From assembly GCA_021323335.1 (NCBI GenBank), contig JAJTCN010000029.1, positions 1-33,817 of the forward strand: a stretch of 33,817 nt of DNA, in the 5' to 3' direction. How positions within the stretch are numbered: position 1 is the first letter of the stretch; each line of letters starts with the position of its first letter. Under the pieces are notes generated by a model. It was not told the origin of the DNA. It did not search any database and was given only the letters and a program-made list of their open reading frames with translations. Below are positions 10,166-33,161 of the stretch, piece by piece. The stretch is from Ramlibacter sp. (GTDB taxonomy: Bacteria > Pseudomonadota > Gammaproteobacteria > Burkholderiales > Burkholderiaceae_C). Position numbers and translations under genes: made by a program.

Positions 10166-10177
10166 GTCCGTGCCTTC

Positions 10178-11791
10178 TTATTTGCGGAACATCGCCAGCA
10201 TGCGCCGCGTCACCGCGAAGCCGCCGAACATGTTGACGGCCGTGAGCGCCAGCGCGAACACGGCCAGGCCCAGGATCACCTGGTTCGGCCGGTCCGCCCC
10301 GCCGCTCCCGGTCAACGGCGGCGCCACCTGCACCAGCGCACCGATCGCGATGATCGACGAGATGGCGTTGGTCACGCTCATCAGCGGCGTGTGCAGCGAC
10401 GGCGTCACGTTCCAGACCACCATGTAGCCGACGAAGCAGGCCAGCACGAAGACGGTGAAGTGCGACAGGAAGCTGGCGGGCGCGTACAGGCCGACCAGCA
10501 GGAACAGCAGCGCGCCGACGCCGAACACGATGGCCAGCGACCTGGCCGACATGGGCTCGCTGGCGCCATGGCCGTGGCCTCCTTTGCTCGCGACGACGGG
10601 CGCGGCCGCTGCCTTGGGCTTGGCGGCCGGTATCTTCGGTGGCGGCGGCGGCCAGGTGATGCTGCCTTCCTTGACCACGGTCAGGCCGCGGATCGCATCG
10701 TCGTCCATGTTGACGTCGAGGCGGCCGTCCTTGGCCTTGCACAGCTCCTCGGTGACGCGCAGCAGATTGTTGGAATAGAGCGTGGACGCCTGCTTGGCCA
10801 GGCGGCTCACCAGGTCCGTGTAGCCGACGATGGTGACGCCGTGCTTCACCACGGCCTGGCCGGGCTCGGTCAGCTCGCAGTTGCCGCCCTGCTCCGCGGC
10901 CATGTCGACGATCACGCTGCCGGGCTTCATGCTGCGCACCATCTCGGCGGTGATCAGCTTGGGCGCCGGCTTGCCGGGGATCAGCGCCGTGGTGATGATG
11001 ATGTCGGCGTCCTTGGCCTCGCGCGCATACATGTCGCGCTGGGCCTGCTGGAAGCCTTCGCTCATGACCTTGGCGTAGCCGCCGCCGCCCGAGCCTTCTT
11101 CCTCGTAGTCGACCTTGACGAATTCGCCCCCGAGGGAGACGACCTGGTCGGCCACCTCGGCGCGGGTGTCGTTGGCGCGGACGATGGCGCCCAGGTTGGC
11201 CGCGGTGCCGATGGCGGACAGGCCCGCCACGCCCGCGCCCGCGATGAACACGCGCGCCGGCGGGATCTTGCCCGCCGCCGTGACCTGGCCATTGAAGAAG
11301 CGGCCGAAGGCATTGGCGGCCTCGATCACGGCGCGGTAGCCGCTGATGCCCGCCATGGAGGTCAGCGCGTCCATCTTCTGCGCGCGCGACAGCTGGCGCG
11401 GCAGGGAGTCGATGGCCAGCACGGTGGCGCGGCGCGTCGCCAGCTGCTGCATCAGCTCCGGGTTCTGCGCCGGCCAGATGAAGCCGATGAGCGTCGCGCC
11501 TTCGCGCAACATCTGCGCTTCCTGCGGCGTGGGCGGCCGCACCTTGAGGACGACGTCGGCGCGCGACCAGAGCTGCATCGCGTCGGGCACCACTTCGGCC
11601 CCCGCGGCTCTATAGGTATCGTCGGCAAAATTCGCGGCGTCGCCCGCCCCGCTTTCCACCGCGACGGCGAAGCCGAGCTTGACCAGCTTGGCGACGACCT
11701 CCGGCACCGTGGCGACGCGCTTTTCGCCAGGAGCCGTTTCCCGCGGGACACCGATCAACAGGGGCGGCACGGCAGGTGCAACGGTTTGCAT
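10178..11791 (-). CDS. pntA: NAD(P) transhydrogenase subunit alpha
   Basis: This 537-aa protein contains the NAD(H)-binding domain I (starts [15 protein letters not shown], with the [13 protein letters not shown] nucleotide-binding turn) and a C-terminal membrane part of about four helices. A low-complexity linker joins them ([18 protein letters not shown] followed by GGHGHGA). It is slightly longer than E. coli PntA because of that linker. The start is ATG 11791, with GAGGAGAAG upstream. It heads the pntA-pntB-fadD operon. The separate pntAa/pntAb split seen in some bacteria is not present here. Confidence 0.96.
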
Positions 11792-11917
11792 TTTTGTTTC
11801 TTCTCCTCGGTGGGACCTGTTGTGCGAGCTGAACGCAAGCTTACATGAAACCCTGTCGAGCTCCGCCCCCGAAAACAAGGGGTTCTCCCTTGCGCGCGCG
11901 CCCCGCGGCCCCATCTG

Positions 11918-13039
11918 ATGACCTTGCCTCCCGTCGCCCTCGTCTCCGTCGCGCTGCATCTCTATATCGGCGCCCGCCTGGTCCCGGCATTGCCGTCCCT
12001 GCCCGCTGGCGTGGCGGTGTCCGCGCTGCTCGTCGCCTCCGCGGTCCTGGTGCCCGCCGGACTGATGGCCCGGCGCTACCTGCAGCCGCCGGCGGCGGAC
12101 CGGCTCACCTGGGTCGGCATGCTGTTCATGGGACTGTTCTCGTCCCTGTTCGTCCTGACCTTCCTGCGCGACCTGCTGCTGCTTGGCTTCGCCATCGCCG
12201 GCGACGCGCCAGCGGACCTGCGCGCCGATTCGGCCATCGTGGTGCTGCTGCTGGCCCTGGGGCTCACCGCCCTCGGCTACTTCAATGCCCGGCGGACGGC
12301 CGCCGTGCGCCGCGTGCAGGTGCCGCTGCCCTCGCTGGACCCGGCGCTGGCCGGCTTCCGCATCGTCCAGATCAGCGACATCCACGTCGGACCCACCATC
12401 AAGCAGGACTACCTGCAGGCCATCGTGGAGCGGGTGAATGCGCTGGACCCCGACGTCATCGCCATCACCGGGGACCTGGTCGACGGGTCGGTGCCGGAGC
12501 TTGCGCGGCACGTCGCGCCGCTGGCCGGGCTGCGCGCGCGGCATGGCGTGTACTTCGTCACCGGCAACCACGAGTACTACTCCGGTGTGCATGGCTGGGT
12601 GGCGGAGCTGCAGCGCCTGGGCATCCGGGTGCTGCACAACGAACACGTCGTGCTGTCGCATGACGGCGCCTCGCTGGTGCTGGCGGGCGTGACCGACTAC
12701 ACCGCGCACCTCTTCGATCCCGCGCACCGCAGCGACCCCGCGGCGGCCCTGGCGGGCGCCCCCGAAGGCGTGACGCGCGTGCTGCTGGCGCACCAGCCCC
12801 GCACCGCGCCGGCTGCGGCGCTCGCCGGCTTCGACCTGCAGATCTCCGGCCACACGCACGGCGGCCAGTTCCTGCCCTGGAGCCTGTTCGTCCCGCTCCA
12901 GCAGCCCTACGTGGCCGGCTTGCACCAGCTCGGCCGTATGCGGATCTACGTCAGCCGTGGGACCGGTTATTGGGGTCCGCCGAAGCGCGTCGCTGCACCA
13001 TCTGAAATTTCAGAGCTGCTTCTGGCGGCGTCCGGCTGA
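11918..13039 (+). CDS. Membrane-anchored metallophosphoesterase (YkuE/YaeI-like)
   Basis: This 373-aa protein has four predicted membrane helices in the first ~130 residues, then a calcineurin-like phosphoesterase domain. All dimetal ligands are visible: DIH (Asp154, His156), GDLVDG, GNHEYY, a later HQPRT histidine, and GHTHGGQ. Relatives are phosphodiesterases, some acting on UDP-diacylglucosamine (LpxH/LpxG type) and others on unknown lipid substrates; the substrate here cannot be read from sequence. It is divergent from pntA with a 126-base gap. No strong Shine-Dalgarno is seen at ATG 11918. Confidence 0.87.
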
Positions 13040-20357: not shown

Positions 20358-21296
20358 TCAGGACGGCAGGGTGGCCCCCTGCCACTGCCCGCTGCGCACC
20401 AGCGCGGCGGCCACGTCGCGCAGCGCGCTCGCGACGGCGACGGCCGCGCGCGGCGCATCCTCCTGGCGCGCCGCAGAGAGGTAGTTGCGCCGGCTGATGC
20501 GGACATCGGCGATGCGCACCGCGCGCCAGCCCGGCGCCGTGCGGCCCGCTTGCGACACCGCCGACATCGGCTGGAGGGTCGCGCCGAGGCCGTCGCGCAC
20601 GCAATCCATCAGCAGCGTGAACGAATCGAATTCGGCCACCACGTTGGGGACCAGGCCGCGGCGGTCGAACTCGGCCCCCACCCGCCGCCGCAGCCCGTGG
20701 CTGCCGGTGGGCAGGATCAAGGGCAACCGCGCCACCTCCTCCAGGGTGAGGCTCTCCCGCGCAGGGTCCACCAGGTCGCTGGCCTGCGGCAGCAGCAGGA
20801 ACAGCTCCTCGTCCAGCAGTGCCACCGCGCGACCCTGCGGGAAAGCGTCCAGGTCGAACTGCACCGCCAGGTCGAGCTCGCCCTGGCGCAACATCTGCGC
20901 CAGGCTGCCGGCGGCGCCCTCCACCACGTTCAGCAGCACGCCGGGGTGCAGGCTGCGGACCTGCCGCACCAGGGGCAGGCCCATGGCGTGCAGCGTGGTG
21001 GCGGGCAGGCCGAGCGACACCATGCCACGCAGTTCACCGGCATCCTGCCGCGCGATGGTCAGCGCCTGTTCCTGCTGGCGCAGCATGAAGCGGGCATGGT
21101 GGTACAGCGCCAGCCCGTTGCCGGTGGGCGCCACGCCCCTGGCCGACCGGTGCAGCAGCATGCGCCCCACCTCCGCCTCCAGCTTCGACAGTTGCTGGCT
21201 GAGGGCCGGCTGCGCGATGCAGAGCAGCCGCGAGGCCTTGGTGAGGCTGCCGCTGTCGACGATGCCGACGAAGTAGCGCAGTTGCCGCAGGTCCAT
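20358..21296 (-). CDS. LysR-family transcriptional regulator (distal gene of catabolic operon)
   Basis: This 312-aa LTTR has an N-terminal winged helix-turn-helix (MDLRQLRYFVGIVDSGSLTK, ALSQQLSKLEAEVG) followed by the two-lobed effector-binding domain. The opening resembles the Nac/CynR-like subgroup of LysR proteins. It lies 18 bases after the TPP-lyase gene on the same strand, so it is the last gene of the operon instead of being divergent from it as is usual for LTTRs. It probably regulates this operon, with a ligand from the same pathway (inference). Confidence 0.9.
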   Translation of the reverse strand: MDLRQLRYFVGIVDSGSLTKASRLLCIAQPALSQQLSKLEAEVGRMLLHRSARGVAPTGNGLALYHHARFMLRQQEQALTIARQDAGELRGMVSLGLPATTLHAMGLPLVRQVRSLHPGVLLNVVEGAAGSLAQMLRQGELDLAVQFDLDAFPQGRAVALLDEELFLLLPQASDLVDPARESLTLEEVARLPLILPTGSHGLRRRVGAEFDRRGLVPNVVAEFDSFTLLMDCVRDGLGATLQPMSAVSQAGRTAPGWRAVRIADVRISRRNYLSAARQEDAPRAAVAVASALRDVAAALVRSGQWQGATLPS

Positions 21297-21314: not shown

Positions 21315-23108
21315 TCAGGCCCCCGGGGTCCAGGGCTTGCCGAACGCGGGTTCCTTGAACGGGATGGGCGGCAACTGCCAGGTGCCGGTGGAAGGCGGGC
21401 GCACCTCGGAGTCGATGTGCACGTCGATCACGCACGGGCGGCGGTTGCGCACCGCCAGCTCCACGGCGCCGCGCAGGTCTTCGCTGCGCGTCACCGTCAT
21501 GCCGTCGGCGCCGCAGGCGCGGGCCCAGGCCGCGAAGTCCGGGTTGTAGCGTTCGCCGCCCGGCCCCTGCTTGCCCTTGTAGAACGCGGTGCCGAGTTCA
21601 CGCCCCTCGAACAGGCCGTACTGCAGGTCGCGGATGGCGCCCCAGGCGAAGTTGTTCCAGACGATCCAGACGCACGGCAGCTCGTACTCCACCGCGGTGG
21701 CCACCACGTACGGCGCCATCATGAAGCCGCCGTCACCGACGACCGCGACGCAGGGCCGATCCGGCGCCGCCATCTGCGCGCCGAGAACGCCGCAGACGCC
21801 GAAGCCCATCGACGAATAGCCCCAGCTGTTCAACATGCTCTGCGCGCGCTTCGGCTGCCAGAACTGCATGAACCAGTTGTGGTGCACGCCGGAGTCCAGC
21901 GCCAGGATCACGTCGTCCGGCAGCACGTCCTGCAGCGCGCCGACCACGTACTCGGGCCGGATCGGCGTGGTGATGGCGCCGAAGTTCGGCCGCACGAAAG
22001 CCTCCCACTCCGCGCGCCAGCCGGCGACCTGCTCGCGCCAGGCGGCGAACTGCCCGCGCCGCGTTTTGCCATCGCGCGTGGCGGCCGCCAGCAACTGGCC
22101 GGTGAACACCTTCGCATCGGCGATGACGCCCAGCGTGGGCGGGTAGTTGCGGCCCAGCTCCTGCGGATCGATGTCGACGTGCACCAGCTTCGTCGCCGGG
22201 AAGTTCCAGGAGTAGCCGGGATGCCAGGTGGAGGAGGAGCGGTCGTCGAAGCGGGTGCCGATGCAGATCACCAGGTCGGCATGGCGACCGGCCTGGTTGG
22301 CCGGGTAGGCGCCATTGCGGCCGATGAAACCCAGCGTCAGCGGGTCGGCCGCGGGCACGCACCCCATGCCGTTGGGCGAGGTGATGACCGGGATGCCCAG
22401 TTGCTGCTGCAGCGCGGTGAGCTCCTCGCCGGCGCCGGCCAGCGTGGCGCCATGGCCGATGAAGAGCACGGGCCGCTGCGCCGCCGCCAGCAAGGCGACG
22501 GCCTGCGCCAGGTCCTGCTCGCTGGCGCCAGGGCGGTGCTCACCATGGCAATGCGCCACCGGAGGGAGCTCCACGTCGGCTTCTTCCTGGAACACGTTGT
22601 AGGGGATGTCCAGGTTCACCGGGCCGGGACGGCCGGTGACCATGGTGTCGAAGGACTGGCGCAGCGCCAGCGGCAGCATGTCCACGCGCGAGGGCTGGAA
22701 GCTGCGCTTGACCACCGGCCGCAGCACCTGCGCGAAGTCCGCCTGGTTGTGCGCGTACAGCTCCTGGAACGGCGCGCGGTTGGCCTGCGAGGTCGGCACG
22801 TTGGCCGTGATGGCGAGGAAGGCCGAGGAGTCCGCCAGCGCCGTGGCGAGCGACATCACCATGTTGGCGCTGCCCGGACCGGTCGACGTGAGCGTCGCTA
22901 CCGGCTGGTGCTTCACGCGGAAGTACGCGTCGGCCATGTGGCCCGCGCACTGCTCGTGGCGCGGCGACACCAGCTTCACCTTGTCCTTGACCTGGTGCAG
23001 CGCATCCAGGATGCCGACGTTGCCGTGGCCGCAGATGCCGAACACGTAAGGCACCTTCTGCTGGACGAGGTACTCGGCGATGAGCTCGCCACCCTTCATG
23101 CGGGTCAT
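21315..23108 (-). CDS. Thiamine-pyrophosphate-dependent enzyme (acetolactate synthase-like)
   Basis: This 597-aa protein has the three-domain layout of the acetolactate synthase/benzoylformate decarboxylase family. The N-terminal PYR domain carries the activating Glu (RHEQCAGHMADAY, near residue 52). A central domain follows (RPVLFIGHGATLAGAGEEL). The C-terminal domain holds the TPP/Mg motif GDGG at about 458 with NN downstream. It is not an anabolic IlvB in context, since no ilvN or ilvC is near. A 2-oxo acid decarboxylase, a carboligase or a C-C lyase are all possible. The adjacent aldehyde dehydrogenase favours an aldehyde product. The alternative start Met4 cannot be excluded. Confidence 0.85.
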   Translation of the reverse strand: MTRMKGGELIAEYLVQQKVPYVFGICGHGNVGILDALHQVKDKVKLVSPRHEQCAGHMADAYFRVKHQPVATLTSTGPGSANMVMSLATALADSSAFLAITANVPTSQANRAPFQELYAHNQADFAQVLRPVVKRSFQPSRVDMLPLALRQSFDTMVTGRPGPVNLDIPYNVFQEEADVELPPVAHCHGEHRPGASEQDLAQAVALLAAAQRPVLFIGHGATLAGAGEELTALQQQLGIPVITSPNGMGCVPAADPLTLGFIGRNGAYPANQAGRHADLVICIGTRFDDRSSSTWHPGYSWNFPATKLVHVDIDPQELGRNYPPTLGVIADAKVFTGQLLAAATRDGKTRRGQFAAWREQVAGWRAEWEAFVRPNFGAITTPIRPEYVVGALQDVLPDDVILALDSGVHHNWFMQFWQPKRAQSMLNSWGYSSMGFGVCGVLGAQMAAPDRPCVAVVGDGGFMMAPYVVATAVEYELPCVWIVWNNFAWGAIRDLQYGLFEGRELGTAFYKGKQGPGGERYNPDFAAWARACGADGMTVTRSEDLRGAVELAVRNRRPCVIDVHIDSEVRPPSTGTWQLPPIPFKEPAFGKPWTPGA

Positions 23109-23127: not shown

Positions 23128-24561
23128 TCAGGGGGCGAGCAGCGTCACCATGCGCTCTTCGCTCATCTCGCGCACCGCGTGGTGTGGGCCTTCGCGGCCG
23201 AAGCCGCTGTCCTTGGAGCCGCCGTAGGGCATCAGGTCGACGCGCGAGCTGGAAGTTTCGTTGATGTGGACGCCGCCCACTTCGAGCCGGCGCGCGGCCG
23301 CCAGGGCGTCGCCCAGCCGGTTGGTGAAGACGCCGGTCGCCAGCCCGTAGGGCGTGGAGTTGACGCGCTCGATGGCTTGGTCCATGGTGTCGAAGGGCAC
23401 CAGGCACATCACCGGCCCGAACACTTCCTGGCAGCCCAGCGGCGTGTCCGCCGCGACGTCGGCCAGCAAGGTGGGCGGCACCACGGAGCCCTGGCGTGCG
23501 CCACCGGCCAGCCGCCGCGCGCCCCGCGCCATCGCCTGCGCGATCCAGCCTTCGATGCGTTCCGCCGCAGCCTGGGTGATGACGGGGCCCACGACCGTGC
23601 CCGGTGCACGCGGGTCGCCGAAAGAAAGCGCCGCGACCATCTGCGCGAGCCGCTGCTCGGCCTCCGGCATCCTGGAGCGGTGCACCAGCAGCACCTGCAC
23701 CGAGGTGCAGACCTGGCCGGCTTTGCGGTACGCGGCGTTGACGATCTTTGGCAGTGCTTGGTCCAGGTCGGCGTCGTCGCAGACGATGCAGTGCGCGATG
23801 GAGCCCAGTTCCATCTGCGTGCGGCGCAAGCCCGCGCGCTGCTGGATCGCGCGGCCCACCTCGGTGCTGCCGGTGAACGCATAGAAGCGCACCAGCGGCT
23901 CGTCCAGCAGCCATTGCGCGACCTGCGCGCCGCCATGCAGCACCGACAGCAGGCCCGCGGGCAGCCCCGCCTCGAGCAAGGCCTCGGCCAGGATGCAGGC
24001 CGTCATCGGCGTGTGCAGCGAGGGCTTGAGCACCACGGCATTGCCGGCGGCCAGCGCGGGGCCAACCTTGTGGACGACCGTGTTCAGCGGCGCGTTGAAG
24101 GGCGTGATCGCGCACACCACGCCCAGCGGCACCCGCAGCGTGAAGCCGATGCGGCCGGCCTGGCCGGGTGCGCCTTCCATGGGCACGAAGTCGCCGCCGC
24201 AGCGCCGCGCCTCCTCGGCCGAGAGGCGCAGCGTGATCACGCCGCGCCGCGCTTCGTTGGCGGCGTCGTGCTGCGTGAAGCCGGCCTCCGCCTGCATCGT
24301 GGCGACCAGTTCGTCGCGGCGCCGCTCCAGGATGGCGGCGGCGCGATCCAGGATGGCACCGCGCTCGTGAGCGTCGAGCCGGCTGGCGCGGAAGGCGGTT
24401 TCGGCCGCCGCCACGCTGGCCGCGACCTGGTCGCGCGAAGGAACCTGCGCCAGCGCCCAGGGCTGCTGGCTGTACTTGTCGAGGACGGCGCTGGTGTCGC
24501 ACCCATCCTGCCATTGCCCGCCCAGCAGCAGCCGGCAGGGTCGCAGCGCGGGCGCCGTCAC
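23128..24561 (-). CDS. NAD(P)-dependent aldehyde dehydrogenase
   Basis: This 477-aa ALDH-superfamily enzyme oxidises an aldehyde to a carboxylate. The general base Glu251 (QMELGS) and the nucleophile Cys285 (GQVCTS) are spaced 34 residues apart, as in the family; FTGSTEVG and the ending PYGGSKDSGFGREG are also typical. The Glu motif reads ELGS rather than ELGG. The start is GTG 24561, overlapping the cupin stop as GTGA; an upstream extension would lie in cupin DNA. The sequence looks closest to the lactaldehyde/phosphonoacetaldehyde/sulfoacetaldehyde-type ALDHs. Its place between the cupin and TPP lyase suggests it uses the aldehyde made by the lyase. Confidence 0.9.
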   Translation of the reverse strand: MTAPALRPCRLLLGGQWQDGCDTSAVLDKYSQQPWALAQVPSRDQVAASVAAAETAFRASRLDAHERGAILDRAAAILERRRDELVATMQAEAGFTQHDAANEARRGVITLRLSAEEARRCGGDFVPMEGAPGQAGRIGFTLRVPLGVVCAITPFNAPLNTVVHKVGPALAAGNAVVLKPSLHTPMTACILAEALLEAGLPAGLLSVLHGGAQVAQWLLDEPLVRFYAFTGSTEVGRAIQQRAGLRRTQMELGSIAHCIVCDDADLDQALPKIVNAAYRKAGQVCTSVQVLLVHRSRMPEAEQRLAQMVAALSFGDPRAPGTVVGPVITQAAAERIEGWIAQAMARGARRLAGGARQGSVVPPTLLADVAADTPLGCQEVFGPVMCLVPFDTMDQAIERVNSTPYGLATGVFTNRLGDALAAARRLEVGGVHINETSSSRVDLMPYGGSKDSGFGREGPHHAVREMSEERMVTLLAP

Positions 24562-24935
24562 AGCGGCACCTCGTCGTCGCTCACCGGCGTGGTGACCACC
24601 AGGAACACCAGCGACTCGGTGCCGGTGTTGGTGAAGCCGTGGCGCACGCCCGGCGGCACGAAGACGTAATCGTGGCGGCGCAGCACGTGGCGCTTGCCGT
24701 CCAGCGTCAGCAAGCCTTCGCCTTCGAGCACGTGGTAGACCTGCTCCTGCACCTGGTGCACGTGCTCCTCCACGTACGCCATCGGCGCGTAGCAGGAGAT
24801 GCGATGGTCGATGCGGCCGGAGCGGCAAGTCTCCGGCGCCACCAGCGGCTTGGAGAGCGCGCCGCCGAAGTGCCCTGGGTACTGCTTCCAGTCGATCTCG
24901 GCGATGTTGGCCAGGAATGCTGCGCGCTCTGCCAT
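24558..24935 (-). CDS. Cupin-domain protein
   Basis: This 125-aa single-domain cupin has motif 1 EEHVHQVQEQVYHVLEGEG, with metal-binding His-x-His-type residues and a Glu, and motif 2 FVPPGVRHGFTNTG. It may be a metal-dependent isomerase or dioxygenase, or a ligand-binding protein; the substrate is unknown. I chose ATG 24935 because GGAG lies 5 bases before it; a GTG at 24941 overlapping the Bug stop is the alternative. It is tightly coupled on both sides to the Bug and ALDH genes. Confidence 0.85.
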   Translation of the reverse strand: MAERAAFLANIAEIDWKQYPGHFGGALSKPLVAPETCRSGRIDHRISCYAPMAYVEEHVHQVQEQVYHVLEGEGLLTLDGKRHVLRRHDYVFVPPGVRHGFTNTGTESLVFLVVTTPVSDDEVPL

Positions 24936-24937
24936 GC

Positions 24938-25924
24938 TCACTCCGCCTTGATGCCCGAAGACTCGGCGACCTTCTGGAAGCGCTCGACCTCCTCGCGCTG
25001 GTACTTGGCGAACTCGGCCGGGCCGAGCGGCAGCAGCTTGGTGCCGGCCTTCTGCGCGTATTCCTTCGCGGCGTCGGACTGCAGGATCTTCATCGTCGCG
25101 TCGGTCAACTTGCGCGAGACGTCATCCGGCGTGTCGGCGCGCACGTGGAACGAGGTCCAGGTGTTGTAGACGTAGTCGGGGTAGCCGCTTTCCTTGACCG
25201 TCGGCACGGCCGGGAAGAAGGGATGGCGCGCGTCGTCCGTCACGGCCAGCGCGCGGATGCGGTTGCCCTGCAGCAGCGGCGTGGCGCCGGCCAGGTCGAC
25301 GATCGCCCAGTCGAGGTTGCCGCCGGCGACGTCGGTCAGCGTCTGGCCCAGGCCCTTGTACGGCACGTGCGTGTACTGGAAGCCGGCGAGGTTGGCGAAC
25401 CAGTCGGCGGCGAGGTGGAAGCCGGCCGAAGCGGTGCCCGCGTTCAGCTTGGCCTTCTTCGACGCGGCGACCAGCGCGGCCAGGTTCTGGTGCGGCGAGT
25501 TGGCCGGCACCACGATGGCCGTCATGTTCTTGGTCAGGCCGGCGATCGGCTTGAAGTCCTTGACCGCGTCGTACGGCAGTTCCTTGACCATCACGACGTT
25601 CGTCACCAGCGGCGCGGTGCTGCCCAGCAGCAGGGTGTAGCCGTCGGCCGGCGCCGCCTTCACCAGCGACGTTCCGATGGTGCCGCTGTTGCCGCCGGGA
25701 CGGTTCTCCACCAGCACCGGCTGGCCGAGCGCGGTCGAGAGCTTTTCGCCGAAGAAGCGCGCCGCGGCATCGGAGCCGCCGCCCGGGGTGAAGGGCACGA
25801 TCACGCGGATCGGCTTGTTGGGAAAGCTGGCGGCGCCCTGCGCGAAAGCGGCGCCGCAGGCGGCCAGGGCGAGGCCCGTCGCCAGGAAGATGCGGCGGGC
25901 GCCGCGGGTGGTCTTGTTCTGCAT
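24938..25924 (-). CDS. Bug-family tripartite tricarboxylate transporter substrate-binding protein (copy A)
   Basis: This 328-aa periplasmic binding protein has an N-terminal signal ending near residue 28 (GAAFA, then QGAAS) that contains a twin-arginine-like RRIFLATG. The mature part begins with the Bug hallmark PIRVIVPFTPGGGSD and contains AAPADGYTLL and VPYKGLGQTLTDV. Bug proteins bind carboxylates or other small ligands and can deliver them to TctAB or act as sensors. No TctA or TctB gene is in this window, which is common for Bug genes. It has a close paralogue at 29513-30478. Confidence 0.92.
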   Translation of the reverse strand: MQNKTTRGARRIFLATGLALAACGAAFAQGAASFPNKPIRVIVPFTPGGGSDAAARFFGEKLSTALGQPVLVENRPGGNSGTIGTSLVKAAPADGYTLLLGSTAPLVTNVVMVKELPYDAVKDFKPIAGLTKNMTAIVVPANSPHQNLAALVAASKKAKLNAGTASAGFHLAADWFANLAGFQYTHVPYKGLGQTLTDVAGGNLDWAIVDLAGATPLLQGNRIRALAVTDDARHPFFPAVPTVKESGYPDYVYNTWTSFHVRADTPDDVSRKLTDATMKILQSDAAKEYAQKAGTKLLPLGPAEFAKYQREEVERFQKVAESSGIKAE

Positions 25925-25958
25925 GTCTTGTCTCCTTCGTGGGTGAATGGGATGCGGA

Positions 25959-26747
25959 TCAGGACGCCGTGGCGCCGCTGTCCACCAGTTCGATGCGCCC
26001 GGTCACGCGGCGCGATTCGTCGGAGGCGAGGAACAGCGCCATGTTGGTCAGGTCCTCGATCTCGATGAGTCCCAGCAGGTGGGACGGGACTTCCGGCCTG
26101 CGGTGCCGGTTCTTCTTGTCGAAGATGCGGTGGTTGGGGAAGTCCTGCTGGAACTTCGTCATGCGCGGGCTGATCACCACGCCCGGCGCCAGGCAGTTCA
26201 CGCGGATCCTGTCCGGCGCATATTCCACGGCCATGGAGCGGGTCAGCGCGATCACGGCGCCCTTGGCGGCGGTATAGCAGTCGCGGCCCGCGGTGCCGAT
26301 AGTGGCGTTGTACGAGGCGGTGTTGATGACCGAGCCGCCGCGGCCGGCCTTCTGCATCGCGCGGATGCCGAAGCGGCTGGACAGGAAGGTCCCGAGCAGC
26401 TCCAGCTTGATGCAGCGCCAGAACTCCTCCAGGTCCACCACCGTGACCATGTCGTCGTGCGGGGTCGAACCGCCGGCGTTGTTGTAGAGGATGTCGAGGT
26501 GGCCGTCGAAGGCGGCGATGCCTTCGGCCACGGCCTGCTCGGTGGACTTCTCGTCGGTGACGTCGCAGTGCACGAACTTGGCCCGGCCGCCGTTGGCGCG
26601 GATGGTTTCCGCGACGTCCTCGCCGCGGGCCTTGTCGATCTCGGCCACGATCACGGCCGCGCCTTCGCGGGCGAAGCGCACGGCGGCGGCGGCGCCGATG
26701 CCGGCGCCGGCGCCGGTGATGAAGGCGACCTTGTCTTTCAATCGCAT
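25959..26747 (-). CDS. SDR-family oxidoreductase (copy A)
   Basis: This 262-aa classical short-chain dehydrogenase has the cofactor motif TGAGAGIG (11-18), NNAG at 89-92, and a catalytic Ser145, Tyr158 and Lys162 (YTAAK). An acidic residue after strand 2 (AEIDK) suggests a preference for NAD. A C-terminal insert KNRHRRPEVPSHLLGLIEIE is shared with the paralogue at 30510-31295 and probably shapes the substrate pocket. ATG 26747 has AGGAG 9 bases upstream. It lies between the leaderless binding protein and the Bug gene. Confidence 0.92.
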   Translation of the reverse strand: MRLKDKVAFITGAGAGIGAAAAVRFAREGAAVIVAEIDKARGEDVAETIRANGGRAKFVHCDVTDEKSTEQAVAEGIAAFDGHLDILYNNAGGSTPHDDMVTVVDLEEFWRCIKLELLGTFLSSRFGIRAMQKAGRGGSVINTASYNATIGTAGRDCYTAAKGAVIALTRSMAVEYAPDRIRVNCLAPGVVISPRMTKFQQDFPNHRIFDKKNRHRRPEVPSHLLGLIEIEDLTNMALFLASDESRRVTGRIELVDSGATAS

Positions 26748-26784
26748 GGAATGGAACTCCTGGAAACGAGGGGGAAAACGGCGC

Positions 26785-27696
26785 TCAGGCGGCGAGCGGC
26801 TGGGCGGCGGCGGCGACGACCTGGTCCCAGTCGGGACACGGTCGCTGCTCGTAGGGGATGTCCCAGGCCGCCGCGTTGCCGGCATCGATGATGTCGGGCG
26901 CCAGGTCGATGCGGCGCGGCACCGGCTGCCCGCGCAAATGGCGCACCGTCATCTCGACGGCGAGGCAGCCGAAGCGGTGGGTGTTGAAGGACGCGGTGGC
27001 CACGAGACGACCGGCGCGCACCTGCGCGATCGCGTCCGGCGTGCCGTTGATGCTGGCCATGGGCATGCTGCGCCCGGTGATCGTGAAGGCCTCCAGCGCG
27101 CCCAAGGCCATCAGGTCGTTGGCGCAGAGGATGGCGTCCAGGCGTTCGTGCCGGGCCAGCAGCGCGAGGGCGGCCTCGCGGCCGGGGTCGTGCTGGTACA
27201 TGCCCGACACGGCTTCGACCAGCCGCATGCCGGGATACTGCGCCAGCGCCTCCTCGAAACCACGCCGCCGCTGCGGGGTGGTGATGGAGCCGGGATGGCC
27301 GTCGATGAAGGCCACCTGCGCATCCGGGCGCAGCTTGCGCAGCACGGCATGGGCCAGCGCCGCGGCCATGCGGGTGTCGTCGGAACCGATGAACCCGACC
27401 CAGTGGCCGGCCGTGGGCTCGCTGACGAACAGCACCAGCGGGATGCCGGCGGCGTTGACCTGCGCGATCGCATCGTTGACCAGCGTCGCATGCGCGGGCA
27501 GCAGCACGATCGCGTCCGGCCGTGCGGCCACCGCCTCGCGCACCAGCGCCGATTGTTCCTCGGGGCTGTCCGGCGTCTGCGGCGCGCGGTGGTCGAGCGT
27601 GCAGCCCATGCGGGCCGCGACGGTCCGTGCCCCCACGAGGGCGCCGCCGTAGGCGGGGTTGGTGTGGTTCTTGGTGATGATGCGCAGGTGTTCCAC
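26785..27696 (-). CDS. Leaderless sugar-type substrate-binding domain protein (copy A)
   Basis: This 303-aa protein has the Peripla_BP_4/RbsB-like fold: it begins directly with strand 1 (EHLRIITKNHTNPAYGG), then PDAIVLLPAH, NAAGIPLVLFVSE, ILCANDLMALGALEA and the terminal segment. No signal peptide, membrane anchor or helix-turn-helix precedes the domain. The start GTG 27696 lies 8 bases after the stop of the EthD-like gene, with GAGA upstream, so a hidden leader can be excluded. It is neither a normal exported ABC binding protein nor a LacI repressor, and no ABC permease or ATPase is near. The likely role is cytoplasmic ligand binding. Confidence 0.8.
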   Translation of the reverse strand: MEHLRIITKNHTNPAYGGALVGARTVAARMGCTLDHRAPQTPDSPEEQSALVREAVAARPDAIVLLPAHATLVNDAIAQVNAAGIPLVLFVSEPTAGHWVGFIGSDDTRMAAALAHAVLRKLRPDAQVAFIDGHPGSITTPQRRRGFEEALAQYPGMRLVEAVSGMYQHDPGREAALALLARHERLDAILCANDLMALGALEAFTITGRSMPMASINGTPDAIAQVRAGRLVATASFNTHRFGCLAVEMTVRHLRGQPVPRRIDLAPDIIDAGNAAAWDIPYEQRPCPDWDQVVAAAAQPLAA

Positions 27697-27704
27697 GGCG
27701 GTTC

Positions 27705-28376
27705 TCAAAGCGGGTTGCGGGCTGCGAAGCACAGGCGGTAGACGGCGAACTGGGCCGCCTGCCGGCAGGCTGTGTGTTCCTGCGCGGCCTGTAGGGCGTC
27801 TTCGGCGAAGGCCGGGCCTTCCGTATCGACCAGCAGCGCCCAGCGCACCTGCGCATCGGGGCCGCCCCGCAGCGCATGCTCGGCGCTGGTGGCCTCGCGC
27901 GCCTGCTGCTCGGCCTCGAGCACCGTGACACGCAGCACGCCGGGCAACCCGGCCAGGGCGGCGCAGGCCGCGGCGGGATCGATGCGCTCGTCGCCGGCCG
28001 AAGCCAGTGCCGCCACGTGGCCGCCCTGCGCCCGGCCTTCCTGCGCGGCGATGTGGCAGACCGTGCGCGACATGCGCCGGAAGTGCTGCATCGCGTCGCG
28101 CGTCCAGGGCGTCGGCGCGTCCACGCGGGCGCGATAGGCCTCGCTGCGCAGCACGTCGGGCGACTCGACACGGTAGGTGCCGAGGAGCTCCGCCCCGGTT
28201 CCGGACACGCGCTCGAAGCGCCGTGCTTCCAGGAAACCGGGGATGGCGAGGCGCTCGAAATGGTGCTCGCGGGCATACCACTCGCGGACGGCGGCACCCT
28301 GGCCGGGCGCGACGTCGTGCCAGATCGCCAGCATGCCGCCGAGCTTGCCGATGGGGTGCCTACCGCTTGCTTTCAT
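27705..28376 (-). CDS. EthD/DUF4286-like dimeric alpha-beta barrel protein
   Basis: This 223-aa protein has two ferredoxin-like halves. The first reads GGMLAIWHDVAPGQGAAVRE, then WYAREHHFERLAIPGFLEARRF and LLGTYRVES, the pattern of EthD-type or small stress-responsive alpha/beta-barrel proteins, with His residues in the HHFER stretch. The second half (GVLRVTVLEAEQ, VRWALLVDTEG) looks like a diverged repeat. Such proteins can be isomerases, lyases or accessory proteins in catabolic operons. It is the first gene of the minus-strand operon, facing the LysR gene across 76 bases. Start Met1 is preferred, though Met15 (MLAIWHD) is possible. Confidence 0.65.
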   Translation of the reverse strand: MKASGRHPIGKLGGMLAIWHDVAPGQGAAVREWYAREHHFERLAIPGFLEARRFERVSGTGAELLGTYRVESPDVLRSEAYRARVDAPTPWTRDAMQHFRRMSRTVCHIAAQEGRAQGGHVAALASAGDERIDPAAACAALAGLPGVLRVTVLEAEQQAREATSAEHALRGGPDAQVRWALLVDTEGPAFAEDALQAAQEHTACRQAAQFAVYRLCFAARNPL

Positions 28377-28452
28377 GGGGCCGGATGGTCCCGCGGCGAC
28401 GTTTAACTGTCCATTCGCTAATATTCAGCAACGTTTCACCTGGGCTTCTGGA
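28377..28452. promoter_or_regulatory. Divergent promoter/operator region of the two catabolic gene groups
   Basis: This 76-base gap between divergent genes is unusually AT-rich for the window in its middle. It contains the imperfect dyad GCTAATATTCAGC (28417-28429) flanked by TT and AA, and the direct repeats ACGTTT at 28400-28405 and 28431-28436. A dyad in the gap next to a divergent LysR gene fits an LTTR binding site. Exact -35/-10 boxes could not be assigned. Confidence 0.45.
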
Positions 28453-29370
28453 ATGGACCTGAACCTGCGCGACCTGCGCTACTTCGAAATCGCCGCCGAG
28501 GCGGAGAGCCTGGGCCGCGCGGCCGAGACGATCGCGCGCAGCCAGCCGGCGTTGACCAAGGCGATCCGCCGGCTGGAGGCGACCGTCGGCGGGCCGCTGT
28601 TCGAGAAGGCGGGTCGCGGCGTCAAGCTCACCCCGGTCGGCCTGGTGCTGCTCGACGAAGCGCGGCAGTTGCGCGTGTCGGCCGACGAGGCGCTGCGCCA
28701 CGTGGCCGACTTCTCCCAGGGCCTGGCAGGCCGGGTGCGCATCGGCAGCGGCACCGTCAGCGTGGGCGCGCTGCTGCCCAGGCTCTGCCGGCTGCTGCTG
28801 CAACAGGCGCCGCAGGCGCAGGTGAACATCGAGGTCGGCGCCAGCTTCCAGCTGCTGGAGCAGTTGCGTGGCAAACAGCTGGACCTGGTGGTCGGGCTGC
28901 TGCCGCCCGAGAAGGATCCCGACTTCGTGCGCCACACCATCGCCATCGACGACGTCGTCGTCGCCGCGCGCAGCAGCCACCCCGTCTTCAAGTCGCGTCG
29001 CATCAGCCTGGAAACGCTGCTGGAATATCCGTGGGTGCTGCCGACGCCGGAGGCGGCCAGCCGCCAATGGCTGGATGCGGCGTTCACCTCGCGCGGGCTG
29101 CCGCCGCCGAACGTGCAGGTGGAGGCGAACTCCATTCCATTGCTGCCGCAGCTGATCGCCGGCACCAACCTCCTGAGCTTCGTCTCGCGCCACACCATCG
29201 CCACCGAGCGCTCGGCGCGGCTGCGCGAAGTGAAGCCCTCGCTGCTGATGCTGCGGCGCGAGCTGGGCGTCAGCGCGCGCAGCGGCGGCTACCTGTCGCC
29301 GGTGGCGCGCCGGCTGCTGGCGCTGCTGCAGCAGGAGGTGCCGGGGCTGATGACGGGGGCGCTGGACTGA
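28453..29370 (+). CDS. LysR-family transcriptional regulator (divergent, central)
   Basis: This 305-aa LTTR has the winged helix-turn-helix in residues 4-62 (NLRDLRYFEIAAEAESLGRA, SQPALTKAIRRLE) and an effector domain with GRVRIGSGTVSVGALLPRL at its start. ATG 28453 is chosen because the family starts there and the upstream frame runs into the opposite gene. It sits at the centre of the two paralogous catabolic groups and is divergent from the EthD-headed operon, the usual LTTR position, so it is the best candidate for their common regulator. Confidence 0.92.
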   Translation: MDLNLRDLRYFEIAAEAESLGRAAETIARSQPALTKAIRRLEATVGGPLFEKAGRGVKLTPVGLVLLDEARQLRVSADEALRHVADFSQGLAGRVRIGSGTVSVGALLPRLCRLLLQQAPQAQVNIEVGASFQLLEQLRGKQLDLVVGLLPPEKDPDFVRHTIAIDDVVVAARSSHPVFKSRRISLETLLEYPWVLPTPEAASRQWLDAAFTSRGLPPPNVQVEANSIPLLPQLIAGTNLLSFVSRHTIATERSARLREVKPSLLMLRRELGVSARSGGYLSPVARRLLALLQQEVPGLMTGALD

Positions 29371-29416
29371 AGGCCCGACCCTGATCCTCGGCGGGGGGCA
29401 TTCGGTCGAAACCAAA

Positions 29417-29445
29417 CTTCTGGTGATCGATCAGGCAACCAGAAG
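29417..29445. promoter_or_regulatory. Perfect inverted repeat upstream of the second Bug gene
   Basis: CTTCTGGT (29417-29424) and ACCAGAAG (29438-29445) are perfect inverted 8-mers separated by 13 bases. They lie in the 142-base gap after the LysR gene and about 70 bases before the Bug start. The spacing fits a two-turn operator for a dimeric regulator; RNA hairpin formation is the alternative. No T-run follows, so it is not a terminator. Confidence 0.5.
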
Positions 29446-29512
29446 CAAATGGACGCGGGTGGAGGACCCACCCAAGATCGCGACCGCTTCCACCCCCACG
29501 AGGAGACAACGT

Positions 29513-30478
29513 TTGAACCATCCCATCCGCCGGCGCGCCTTCGTCGCAGGCCTCGCCGCCGCACCCCTCACGTTTTCGTTCGCCCAGGACGCGAGCCGCC
29601 CGATCCGCATCATCGTTCCCTTCGGCCCCGGCGGCGGCTCGGACCCGCCGGCGCGCTTCTTCGGCGCCCGCCTGGGCGAAGCGCTGCGCCAGACCGTCGT
29701 GGTCGAGAACAAGCCCGGCGGCATCAGCGGCTCCATCGGCACGTTGGCCGTCAAGGCGGCGCCCGCCGACGGCCTGTCGATCCTGGTGGCCAGCATGTCT
29801 CCCCTGGTGGTGAACCCGATCATCGTGAAGGACCTGGCGTACGACCCGCTGAAGGACTTCAAGCCCATCACCGGCCTGACCAAGACCACCAACGCCATCG
29901 TCGTGCCCGCCAACTCGCCGCACAACGACCTGGCCAGCCTGGTGAAGGCCTCGCGCGCCAACCCCAACCTGAACGCCGGCGGCTCGTCCGCCCTGTTCCA
30001 GCTCGGCGCCACCTGGTTCGCCAGCCTGGCCGGCTTCAAGTTCACCTACGCGCCGTACAAGAGCGTCGGCCAGGTCCTCACCGACGTCGGCGGCGGCAAC
30101 CTCGACTGGGCGTTCGTCGATCTCGGCGGCGCCCTGCCGCTGGCCAAGGCCGGCCGCGTGAAGGTGCTCGGCACCACCAGCGACCAGCGCCACCGCTCGC
30201 TGCCCGACGTGCCGACGGTGCTGGAAAGCGGCTGGAAGGACTTCGTGTTCCACAGCTGGATCACCTTCCACGTGCGGGCCGAGACGCCGGATGACATCAC
30301 GAAGCGCCTGGTCGACGCGATGCGGCCGATCGTCAACAGCGACGCCGCCCGCGACTTCGCACGCAGTGTCGACGCGGACCTCTTTCCGCTCGGTCCGGAT
30401 GCACTGATGCGCCATCACCGCGAGGAGTTGGTGCGCTTCCAGCAGGTTGCGCAGGCTGCGGGCATCAAGCCGCAATGA
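29513..30478 (+). CDS. Bug-family tripartite tricarboxylate transporter substrate-binding protein (copy B, TTG start)
   Basis: This 321-aa Bug protein has the signal (LNHPIRRRAFVAGLAAAP, cleaved near FSFAQ) with a twin-arginine-like RRRAFVAG. The mature part starts PIRIIVPFGPGGGSD. I chose TTG 29513 because GAGGAG lies 7 bases upstream and the signal peptide begins there; the longer frame from ATG 29423 adds a non-conserved stretch. It is a close paralogue of 24938-25924, sharing DFKPI.GLTK and IVVPANSPH blocks, and heads the plus-strand trio with SDR and leaderless binding protein. Confidence 0.9.
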   Translation: MNHPIRRRAFVAGLAAAPLTFSFAQDASRPIRIIVPFGPGGGSDPPARFFGARLGEALRQTVVVENKPGGISGSIGTLAVKAAPADGLSILVASMSPLVVNPIIVKDLAYDPLKDFKPITGLTKTTNAIVVPANSPHNDLASLVKASRANPNLNAGGSSALFQLGATWFASLAGFKFTYAPYKSVGQVLTDVGGGNLDWAFVDLGGALPLAKAGRVKVLGTTSDQRHRSLPDVPTVLESGWKDFVFHSWITFHVRAETPDDITKRLVDAMRPIVNSDAARDFARSVDADLFPLGPDALMRHHREELVRFQQVAQAAGIKPQ

Positions 30479-30509
30479 CCGCCATTTCACGACAGTACGA
30501 AAGACAGAC

Positions 30510-31295
30510 ATGCGTTTGAAGGACAAGGTTGCGCTGATCACGGGCGCCGGACAAGGCATCGGCGCGGCCGGTGCGCGGGTGTTCGCCCGCGAGGGCGCGC
30601 GCGTGGTGGTCGCCGACCTGAACGCCGAGATCGGCGAACGCTGCGTGGCGGACATCCGCGCGGCCGGCGGCGAGGCGCTGTTCGCGCAGTGCGACTTCAC
30701 CGACGAAGCCGCGGTGGAGCGCACCGTGGCCCGGACCGTCGAAGCCTACGGCGGACTGGACATCCTGTACAACAACGTCGGTGGCTCCACCCCCCAGGAC
30801 AACGCGGTGACCGACCTGCCGATGGAGGAGTTCTGGAGCGCGATCAAGCGCGACCTGCTCACCACCTTCCTGGCTTGCCGGTTCGGCATCCGCGCGATGC
30901 AGAAGGCGGGGCGCGGCGGCTCGGTGATCAACACCAGCTCCTTCGTCGCCGTCATCGGCACGCTGGGTTGCGATGCCTACACCGCGGCCAAGGGCGGCGT
31001 GAATGCCATCACGCGCTCGATGGCGCTGGAATACGCGCCGGACAAGATCCGCGTGAACGCCATCGCACCCGGCGCGGTGCAGACCGACCGCATGGCGCGC
31101 TTCCTCGCCAGCAACCCCAACCACCTGAAGTTCTCCGAGCGCAACCGCCACCGCCGGCCCGAAGTGCGATCGCACCTCGTGGGGCTGGTGGAGGTGGAAG
31201 ACATCGCCGCGATGGCGCTGTTCCTCGCCTCGGACGATTCGCGCCGCGTCACCGGCACGATCCAGGTGATCGACAGCGGCGCTTCGGCGACCTGA
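30510..31295 (+). CDS. SDR-family oxidoreductase (copy B)
   Basis: This 261-aa classical SDR has TGAGQGIG (11-18), catalytic Ser144, Tyr157 and Lys161, and an Asp after strand 2 (VADLN) indicating NAD preference. The stretch RFGIRAMQKAGRGGSVINT is identical to copy A, and the ERNRHRRPEVRSHLVGLVEV insert is nearly the same. The two genes clearly arose from one ancestor. It follows the Bug gene by 31 bases and precedes the binding-protein gene by 16. The substrate is probably a hydroxy acid or polyol derivative (inference). Confidence 0.92.
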   Translation: MRLKDKVALITGAGQGIGAAGARVFAREGARVVVADLNAEIGERCVADIRAAGGEALFAQCDFTDEAAVERTVARTVEAYGGLDILYNNVGGSTPQDNAVTDLPMEEFWSAIKRDLLTTFLACRFGIRAMQKAGRGGSVINTSSFVAVIGTLGCDAYTAAKGGVNAITRSMALEYAPDKIRVNAIAPGAVQTDRMARFLASNPNHLKFSERNRHRRPEVRSHLVGLVEVEDIAAMALFLASDDSRRVTGTIQVIDSGASAT

Positions 31296-31311
31296 GCGGA
31301 GCGGCCACACC

Positions 31312-32214
31312 ATGAAGCGCCACCGCATCGTCACCATCAGCAAGAACGGCAGCAACCCGGCCTACCAGGGCGCCCGCATCGGCATGGACCGGCTGGCGAA
31401 ACTGCGCGGCGTCGACGTCCAGCACCTCGTGCCCGTCGTCGACGACAGCATCCCCGAGCAGGCCGAGATGCTCGAACGGCTGCTGCGCGAGCCGCCGGAC
31501 GCGCTGCTGATCTCGTGCTCGCACGAAAGCCAGCTCGACGCCGGGCTGGAGAAGCTGCGGGACGCCGGCGTCGTGATCGTCATGTTCGTCGGCCGCACCA
31601 CCCGGAAGGAGCTGGCCCGCTGCTACGTCGGTTCGCGCGACCGCGCCATGACCCGCGCCGTGGCCGAGGCCGTGGCGCGGCACCTGGGCGGGCGCGGCAC
31701 GATGCTGGTGCTGGACGGCAACCCGCTGGGCATCCTGTACGAGCCGCGCAAGAACGGCTTCCGCGATGGCCTGGCGGCCTGGCCGGGGGTACGGGTGCTC
31801 GGCGCCGCCGACGGCCATTTCCTGCGCGAGCCGGCGCGGGCTGCCATGCAGTCCCTGCTGGCGCAACACGGCGTGCCCGATGCCGTGCTGGTCGCCAACG
31901 ACTTCATGGGCCTGGGCGCCCTGGACGCATTGCGCGAGCACGGCGCGCGACCCGCCATGGGCAGCGTCAACGCCACGCCGGACGGCGTCGCCCGTGTCGG
32001 AACGGGCGAGATGCTGGTGACCGCCGCCTTCAACGCCATGGGCATGGGCTGCCTGGCAATGGAAGCGGCGCTGCGCATCCTGCGCGGAGAAACCGTTCCG
32101 GCGGAGGTCCTGCTGCCGGCGGAACTGGTCACGCGCGAGAACATGGCGGCGTGGAGCCTGCCGTACGAGGAGCGCCCGCTGCTGGATTGGGACCTGACGC
32201 TGGCGAACTCCTAG
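31312..32214 (+). CDS. Leaderless sugar-type substrate-binding domain protein (copy B)
   Basis: This 300-aa RbsB-like/Peripla_BP_4 domain starts at once with strand 1 (MKRHRIVTISKNGSNPAYQG), so there is no signal peptide and no DNA-binding domain. Later blocks match copy A: VLVANDFMGLGALDA, GSVNATPDGVARV, and the shared ending region with PYEERPLLDWD (PYEQRPCPDWD in copy A). No ABC transporter genes are near. Its TAG shares the tetranucleotide CTAG with the stop of the convergent esterase gene. Same unusual leaderless type as copy A. Confidence 0.8.
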   Translation: MKRHRIVTISKNGSNPAYQGARIGMDRLAKLRGVDVQHLVPVVDDSIPEQAEMLERLLREPPDALLISCSHESQLDAGLEKLRDAGVVIVMFVGRTTRKELARCYVGSRDRAMTRAVAEAVARHLGGRGTMLVLDGNPLGILYEPRKNGFRDGLAAWPGVRVLGAADGHFLREPARAAMQSLLAQHGVPDAVLVANDFMGLGALDALREHGARPAMGSVNATPDGVARVGTGEMLVTAAFNAMGMGCLAMEAALRILRGETVPAEVLLPAELVTRENMAAWSLPYEERPLLDWDLTLANS

Positions 32215-33161
32215 CGCACGAAACTCCGGATCGCGTCCGTCAACGCCGTATCCGGCGTGTTGATCGCATACACCTCGGACATGTGGCTGTGGCCGCGCAA
32301 CTGCAGGAAAGTCGGGCAGCGCCCGGCCTCGCACAGCGCCGCGCGCGCCTGCTCGGACTGGCGATGGAAGTCGGAGGGGTCGAGCTCGGCGTACGCCACC
32401 AGCATCGGCAGCCGCGCCGCCGCCATGCCCGGCAACGCCGAGCGCGCCGCGTAGACCGAAGGATCGCGGCCGAAGTAGGCCTGCAACGGCGGATTGGGGT
32501 CGGCCGAGACCGGATCGAACAGGCCGGACACCAGGATCGCGCCGGCGATGCCGCCGCCTGGTGCGACGTGGAACTGCCGATGGGCGACGTATTGCGCAAC
32601 GTGCGCGGCGCCGGCCGAATGGCCCATCACGTAGATGCGCGCCGGATCGCCGCCGCGCGCGGCGATGTTCTGCCGCACCCACGACAGCGCCGCGGCCAGG
32701 TCCTGCTGCGCGGCCGGCCAGGGGTTCTGCGGCGCGAGCCGGTACGTGATGTTGATGCCGACCATGCCGTTCTTCACGGCCCACAGCGCGATGTTGTCGT
32801 AGAAGGGGCTGGTGCCGGTGCGCTTGTCGCCGGCGACAAAGGCGCCGCCGTGCACGAACACCAGCACGGGGCGCGCTGCGCCCGTTGCGGTCGGCGTGAA
32901 GACATCCAGGCGGTGCCGCGCATCGGCGCCGTAGCGCTCGTCGCGCGCCACGCGCACATCGGCATACGGCTCGCGCTGCTGCATCGGTGCGTACAGCGCC
33001 GCGGTGGGCGGCGGTGCGACGACGCGTCCCATCTGCACCAGCTGCGCGGAGATGTGCGGCGGCACCTGCGAGGCCACGGGACCGGACGCGATCGGCGCGG
33101 GCGCGGGGGCGGTGGCGCAGCCGGCGAGCAGCAAGGCGGCGGCGAGGAAGGCGGCGTGCAT
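32211..33161 (-). CDS. Alpha/beta-hydrolase esterase lipoprotein
   Basis: This 316-aa protein has a lipoprotein signal with lipobox LLAGC (Cys15), so it should be anchored in the cell envelope. After a Pro-rich linker comes a carboxylesterase fold of the BD-FAE/hormone-sensitive lipase type: HGGAF (104-108, oxyanion hole), GHSAG with nucleophile Ser182, then Asp in AELDPSD and His in RGHSHMSE. ATG 33161 has AGGAGA 8 bases upstream. Placed against the end of the second catabolic trio, it may release the acid that the Bug proteins bind (inference). Confidence 0.87.
   Translation of the reverse strand: MHAAFLAAALLLAGCATAPAPAPIASGPVASQVPPHISAQLVQMGRVVAPPPTAALYAPMQQREPYADVRVARDERYGADARHRLDVFTPTATGAARPVLVFVHGGAFVAGDKRTGTSPFYDNIALWAVKNGMVGINITYRLAPQNPWPAAQQDLAAALSWVRQNIAARGGDPARIYVMGHSAGAAHVAQYVAHRQFHVAPGGGIAGAILVSGLFDPVSADPNPPLQAYFGRDPSVYAARSALPGMAAARLPMLVAYAELDPSDFHRQSEQARAALCEAGRCPTFLQLRGHSHMSEVYAINTPDTALTDAIRSFVR

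Follow-up and report, generated by a model that had tools for sequence, protein, structure and literature searches.

Paired Bug, SDR and leaderless binding-protein genes around a LysR gene in Ramlibacter, and an apparently cytosolic RbsB-like family in TPP-dependent catabolic operons

The stretch analysed here (the window) is contig JAJTCN010000029.1 (C159), 33,817 nucleotides long, of a Ramlibacter sp. genome of 4.49 Mb in 165 contigs that is 89.7% complete. A central LysR regulator gene (28453..29370, plus strand) is flanked by two gene sets on opposite strands, and each set encodes a TctC-type receptor (Bug), a short-chain dehydrogenase/reductase (SDR) and an RbsB-like binding protein (PBP) without a signal peptide. 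Both sets were recognized with Pfam at the places where the original prediction, made from the DNA letters, had put them. On the minus strand, the core 1 operon begins 76 bp from the start of the divergent LysR gene and comprises the genes for a 223-aa protein (27705..28376), PBP1 (26785..27696; Peripla_BP_4, E 1.8e-39), SDR1 (25959..26747; adh_short/adh_short_C2), Bug1 (24938..25924; TctC, E 5.9e-53), a small cupin protein (24558..24941; Cupin_2), an aldehyde dehydrogenase (ALDH; 23128..24558; Aldedh, E 1.6e-138) and a thiamine pyrophosphate (TPP) enzyme of the acetolactate synthase/cyclohexane-1,2-dione hydrolase superfamily (21315..23108; TPP_enzyme_N/M/C and PDB relatives). It is followed by a second LysR gene (20358..21296, minus strand; HTH_1 and LysR_substrate). 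Core 2, on the plus strand, consists only of Bug2 (29513..30478; TctC, E 4.3e-47), SDR2 (30510..31295; adh_short/adh_short_C2) and PBP2 (31312..32214; Peripla_BP_4 and a structure model), and ends against a convergent hydrolase gene. Spacers are short in both: 8 bp between the 223-aa gene and PBP1, 37 bp between PBP1 and SDR1 and 34 bp between SDR1 and Bug1; 31 bp between Bug2 and SDR2 and 16 bp between SDR2 and PBP2.

Most of these proteins are of familiar kinds. SDR1 and SDR2 are classical SDRs, with an adh_short domain, the TGxxxGIG motif (TGAGAGIG and TGAGQGIG) and the YxxxK motif (YTAAK). Bug1 and Bug2 have the TctC domain and a signal peptide read by eye, and nothing in them is unusual for Bug receptors. 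The TPP enzyme has the full three domains of the acetolactate synthases and cyclohexane-1,2-dione hydrolases, and its nearest solved relatives are BbmA, acetolactate synthases, glyoxylate carboligase and cyclohexane-1,2-dione hydrolase; since the NCBIfam models that it matched (best 25 of 52) all scored below their cut-offs, no known reaction can be assigned to it. The 223-aa protein, 'EthD-like' by eye only, had no match in Pfam or NCBIfam; relatives are encoded in both Variovorax loci described below (65–66% identity) and in one more distant TPP cluster (34%, L176:14444-15094). A Pfam scan of 26 window proteins found neither TctA or TctB nor a CUT2 permease or ATPase.

The intergenic regions differ between the two cores. 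In the divergent promoter region (28377..28452), an alignment of the window with two Variovorax genomes revealed a conserved block, CTGAATATTAGCGAAT.GAC.GTTAA, containing an ATT-N4-AAT dyad that we take to be LysR-box-like. The Variovorax relatives of the central LysR gene are 79–81% identical and have the same orientation. Upstream of Bug2, sequence inspection found an inverted repeat, CTTCTGGT-N13-ACCAGAAG (29417..29445), whose arms have exact copies nowhere else in the window (expected 0.04, with the pattern written after the site had been seen). This palindrome differs from the conserved core 1 block, which suggests that core 2 is regulated separately. A promoter and terminator scan of 28200-32400 found nothing.

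The two cores are related to different degrees. Protein identity is 57.5% for the Bugs (184/320), 64.1% for the SDRs (168/262) and 37.7% for the PBPs (112/297), and DNA-level alignment of the three gene pairs gave 72, 73 and 63%. When Bug2 was compared with its own genome (80 matches, including the query), Bug1 reached 58% and the best full-length match among the other 78 reached 38%; two fragments scored higher (57 aa at 52% and 132 aa at 41%). For SDR2 (40 matches, including the query), SDR1 reached 65% and the runner-up 39%. PBP2 matched PBP1 at 38% (E 1.6e-61) and a copy on contig C47 at 36% over 211 residues (E 2.6e-33). The likeness of the Bug and SDR pairs exceeds chance, with a smaller margin for the PBPs, and SDR1/SDR2 and Bug1/Bug2 are true paralogue pairs. 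As predicted, the SDRs have long stretches in common and both carry an NRHRRPEV insert, which was not found in another SDR of the genome (own_SDR3) or in 19 other SDRs compared; the two Variovorax orthologues have NRHHRPEV. The C-terminal tail PYE.RP..DWD is likewise common to PBP1 and PBP2. The opposite transcription order is also real: PBP-SDR-Bug in core 1 versus Bug-SDR-PBP in core 2, both reading Bug, SDR, PBP from left to right.

Trees place the divergence of the cores before the separation of this lineage from Variovorax. In the SDR tree (24 rows), SDR1 groups with two Variovorax genes and SDR2 lies outside them; in the Bug tree (41 rows), Bug1 and two Variovorax genes group in the same way with Bug2 outside, each with starred support. 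It is because SDR2 and Bug2 branch outside that the core 1/core 2 split must predate the Variovorax split, and a recent local duplication is ruled out. Variovorax strains J22P240 and YR216 have the same gene order as core 1 (LysR, the 27705 gene, PBP1, SDR1, Bug1, cupin, ALDH, TPP enzyme) at 65–91% identity, and core 2 was not found in either whole genome when searched with SDR2, Bug2 and PBP2. The best Variovorax matches to these three were the core 1 genes (64, 54–55 and 35%), followed by matches at 36–42, 34–35 and 26–27%. The PBP trees give a different picture: PBP1 groups with the Variovorax proteins and a Rhodospirillales protein (L042), whereas PBP2, although within the larger group that contains these, sits apart from them on a long branch. 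Constraining PBP1, PBP2 and the Variovorax PBPs into one clade cost 29 log units and was rejected by the approximately unbiased (AU) test (p-AU 0.0075), in a tree of 21 rows that held 19 of the 59 full loci and was picked after a 63-row tree, the tested clade being the one predicted by the finding.

These results bear on the proposal of the original prediction that the whole trio was co-duplicated once and retained as one functional unit. The clustering of the SDR and Bug pairs and the presence of the three families twice at one locus speak for it, and the expectation that the pairs would cluster was borne out for SDR and Bug but failed for PBP. A tandem copy keeps its strand, and an inverted copy flips gene order along with strand and so keeps the order of transcription; the reversed order here corresponds to neither. 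Since the PBPs are, moreover, not sisters and far less identical than the other pairs, a block duplication, tandem or inverted, is ruled out, the single inversion-type duplication initially considered has to be given up, and the co-duplication of the trio is largely refuted and, in our view, highly doubtful. Gene-by-gene assembly is the simplest account of the two cores, and we tentatively suggest, as part of the overall reading given below and with the same confidence, that core 2 combines the products of an older duplication of Bug and SDR with a PBP of separate origin.

Alternatively, core 2 could be a ready-made operon acquired by lateral transfer and unrelated to the neighbouring pathway. 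SDR2 was searched against 399 genomes of the order (E≤1e-80) and 399 genomes of the family (E≤1e-60), with six candidates scored per genome. At the former cut-off, which is too strict to inform alone, only this genome matched, and at the latter the matches were limited to SDR1 here and, in four other genomes, a single gene per genome at 47–53% identity. These relatives at about 50% (L166-L169) lacked NRHRRPEV and had no PBP match in the 15–19 kb around them; that of L169 adjoins a Bug gene. In 36 same-genus genomes, PBP2 found nothing better than an exported relative at 29%. Among plasmid records, the best 25 of 861 matches to PBP2 ranged from 27 to 31%, and the best 15 of at least 5000 matches to SDR2 reached up to 53%. 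The sparseness of relatives in the family and genus genomes, the absence of core 2 from the two Variovorax genomes and its own palindrome would fit a transfer. However, the nearest relatives found for SDR2 and Bug2 are their core 1 counterparts, at a distance of about 1.8 kb, together with the Variovorax orthologues of these, and GC content shows no departure. A lateral origin is thus possible but unlikely.

To place the PBPs in a wider context, 66 loci were collected in a genome scan with four PBP queries, and partners were scored as tblastn matches within 7 kb of the PBP; 46 of the loci have full flanks, and the chosen queries may miss other SDRs or enzymes. Bug and TPP enzyme matches were each present in 33 loci, ALDH in 25, SDR in 21 and cupin in 20. 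At this genome's gene density, 22% of such stretches would contain a Bug and 12% an SDR by chance, although other genomes may be denser. Relatives (≥50%) of the LysR gene at 20358 occurred in 19 loci. The three families of the cores do co-occur in other genomes, as had been expected, with Bug and SDR matches together in 16 of the loci; all 16 also hold the TPP enzyme, ALDH and cupin, and no other of the 66 loci had Bug, SDR and PBP without these. The constant partners are therefore the TPP enzyme, ALDH and cupin, instead of the Bug-SDR-PBP trio, and the view of the trio as the working unit finds no support across the loci. It may still hold for core 2, which consists of exactly those three genes.

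A related cluster in the same genome, on contig C47 (L031:1-7173), illustrates this. Its order is cupin-ALDH-TPP-SDR-PBP-Bug-Bug, and its TPP enzyme (79–80%), cupin (69%) and ALDH (63%) resemble those of the window, whereas its SDR (27%) and Bugs (32–35%) belong to other subfamilies; its PBP is leaderless, and about 50 residues of the second lobe are missing from it. The cluster of Hydrogenophaga intermedia S1 includes a branched-chain-type ABC transporter with an 844-aa permease-ATPase fusion (read by eye). More distant TPP clusters carry FAD dehydrogenases, and one has TcuA and TcuB above the NCBIfam cut-offs. Apparent TAXI-type TRAP transporter genes (by eye) follow the leaderless PBP in L061 and L049, with an ALDH in the locus. 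One TPP cluster that also holds a leaderless RbsB-like gene encodes a second binding-protein-fold protein with no evident leader (L173:8156-9055; NMT1-like, 299 aa), which we would liken to dihydroxyphthalate decarboxylase. Literature searches found nothing on that decarboxylase as a binding-protein fold, nor on this gene cluster.

The lack of a signal peptide is a property of most of the PBP family. Full PBP sequences were obtained from 59 of the 66 loci; L096 and L098 (contig end), L100 and L105 (short), L104 (no motif), L068 (internal stop) and L102 (overlong frame) were excluded from the PBP alignment and leader count, and all 66 were kept in the partner, glutathione S-transferase and LysR counts. 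With PBP1 and PBP2 there were 61 proteins, of which 57 are leaderless and four, all from Bradyrhizobium, have a leader, as called from the nearest start codon, in-frame stops, inspection by eye and a hydropathy window; for many loci, the call depends on the choice of the nearest start. A leader would not fit in 15 of the loci, where an in-frame stop lies so close before the conserved TKN motif that there is room for no more than 17 residues. For PBP2, no leader is possible, as the ATG is separated from the in-frame stop by 14 codons, none of them a start. PBP1 begins with GTG 8 nt past the upstream gene, but its reading frame extends beyond this codon and offers alternative starts 4, 12 and 195 codons upstream of it; in its two Variovorax orthologues (80–81% identity), a stop lies 8 residues before the TKN motif. 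On these grounds, the PBPs seem to work inside the cell and are predicted to be cytosolic. The Bradyrhizobium proteins that retain the leader are those of L072, L077, L079 and L081. In L072, a permease-ATPase fusion of the branched-chain ABC type (by eye) precedes the RbsB-like gene, and TPP, cupin and SDR genes lie 6–9 kb away. Among the matches listed in a literature search on leaderless or cytosolic binding proteins, no title concerned this RbsB-like family.

Could the leaderless PBPs be mis-started, or exported otherwise, and thus be ordinary transport receptors? Their exported relatives in Bradyrhizobium would agree with this, but a wrong start codon is ruled out by the close upstream stops of the 15 loci and the lack of an upstream start for PBP2. 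A classical ABC receptor is likewise rejected as an explanation, given that 65 of the 66 loci had no CUT2 permease match within 7 kb and only one did (with one query sequence). We consider ordinary receptors hardly credible.

The predicted fold is that of a type I binding protein. The structure model of PBP2, the only member for which the fold was predicted, has a mean predicted local distance difference test (pLDDT) score of 97.1 and aligns with RbsB (2DRI) at a template modelling (TM) score of 0.95 by target length and a root-mean-square deviation of 1.5. An excerpt of PMC6858440 describes 2DRI as closed, ribose-bound RbsB and names D89, N190, D215 and R141 as crucial for ribose. Like RbsB and other CUT2 sugar-binding proteins, the PBPs have the Peripla_BP_4 domain and the pocket residues N13, R141, N190 and D191, which are invariant in the family alignment. 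Unlike those receptors, they lack a signal peptide and differ at pocket or pocket-adjacent positions: S9K, T10N, F16Y and D215N relative to Escherichia coli RbsB in 57/57 leaderless and 4/4 Bradyrhizobium proteins, and F15A and Q235F in 56/57 and 4/4. The ribose-crucial set is therefore incomplete: R141 and N190 are retained, D215 is replaced by Asn, and the D89 column holds Val, Ile or Leu, with a possible one-residue shift. This constancy across leaderless and Bradyrhizobium members argues for retained ligand binding, in a pocket that appears strongly constrained and unlikely to hold ribose. An exported PBP relative in another genome of the genus (G033; 29–31% identity) has K, N and N at S9, T10 and D215 and Phe at both 15 and 16. 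Its gene lies in an apparent CUT2 ABC operon (L033:7040-13795) beside intradiol-dioxygenase-like and iron alcohol dehydrogenase-like genes, the former scoring below the NCBIfam cut-offs. This context hints, no more, at aromatic or carboxylate ligands for the family.

A cytosolic protein with such a pocket could instead be an enzyme, a binding-protein fold turned catalyst for one step of the pathway. Cyclohexadienyl dehydratase, as described in an excerpt of PMC7683729, is a precedent for an enzyme with this type of fold, the recurrent partners of the PBPs are more often enzymes than matching transport parts, and Lys11, Asn12, Arg146, Asp197 and Asn220 (PBP2 numbers), at or near the RbsB pocket positions, are invariant in 57/57. 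However, all polar residues that are invariant among the leaderless proteins also occur in the four exported Bradyrhizobium ones, and the exported G033 protein lacks only Tyr18 among them. Arg27 (52/57) comes closest to being specific to the leaderless members. An enzymatic role is accordingly rather improbable, and the precedents for a sensor are closer. As described in an excerpt of PMC3795266, NasS and AmiC are leaderless cytosolic homologues of binding proteins and keep an antiterminator bound until their ligand arrives, and AmiC work is cited for cytosolic proteins of this superfamily in an excerpt of PMC9602780. The PBPs are like them in being leaderless homologues encoded in a pathway cluster with the ligand site retained (PMC3795266). 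They are unlike them in being RbsB-like, that is, from a different solute-binding-protein family, and a sensing role for them would be conjectural. A search for ANTAR domains in this genome, which is about 90% complete, gave a single match, on contig C99, and none on the window contig or C47, so that a copy of AmiC-AmiR or NasS-NasT is ruled out; with the ANTAR partner missing, the PBP would act directly on a LysR or on an enzyme.

Our best reading, held tentatively and with slightly less than even confidence, is that a catabolic operon built on a TPP enzyme has a ligand sensor in the cytosol and is complemented by an accessory gene set for a second substrate. Bug proteins are receptors for small carboxylates, and the logic of an SDR, a TPP enzyme and an ALDH resembles mandelate or cyclohexane-1,2-diol breakdown. 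Bug1 would capture a small organic acid in the periplasm, SDR1 would turn a hydroxyl into a carbonyl in the cytosol, the TPP enzyme would break the C-C bond beside the carbonyl and the ALDH would oxidise the released aldehyde. PBP1, its export signal lost, would bind the substrate or an intermediate in the cell, with sensor or effector as its most likely role. Core 2 lacks a gene for carbon cleavage and is probably under another regulator; we infer that it is an accessory operon for the uptake and oxidation of a second, related substrate, whose product would enter the same TPP, ALDH and cupin steps.

Several observations weigh against this reading. PBP2 has the longest branch of its tree, and both the AU test and the position of PBP2 in the tree are weaker for it. 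At several of the variable pocket positions, PBP1 and PBP2 are not alike. Sensors of the NasS/AmiC type work through an ANTAR partner, and none is nearby here. None of the five partners (Bug, SDR, TPP enzyme, ALDH and cupin) was detected within 7 kb in 18 of the 66 loci, some of which are on short contigs, and several of which, from Bradyrhizobium, have TPP and cupin genes just beyond that distance. Furthermore, a glutathione S-transferase gene adjoins the leaderless PBP (about 30–310 nt between matches) in six of the 66 loci (L043, L046, L047, L048, L053 and L062), making one fixed pathway for all members unlikely.

Elsewhere, the window holds pntAB-type transhydrogenase genes (8753-12925) and apparently ordinary genes for a patatin, CorA, a ZnuA-like protein, an AMP-binding enzyme and a tRNA methyl transferase.

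The operon itself is made of familiar parts; of greater interest is the RbsB-like family, which is conserved, little described and apparently cytosolic. The first three plasmid matches to the PBP (H1-H3) carry the annotation of a sugar ABC transporter substrate-binding protein, and with 57 of 61 members leaderless and a near-invariant pocket, the name of a sugar transport receptor would mislead. With even confidence, we propose that a widespread alpha- and betaproteobacterial RbsB-like family has moved to the cytosol with its pocket nearly unchanged, and that, whether as sensor, carrier or enzyme, it may be a standard component for binding ligands in the cytosol, independent of an ANTAR partner, in TPP-dependent catabolic operons in which substrate-specific Bug, SDR and PBP sets would be swapped around a constant enzyme core. 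The Ramlibacter locus shows such substrate-facing genes exchanged around the TPP/ALDH/cupin core, and the ligands of the PBPs would point to the substrate of this recurrent catabolic operon.

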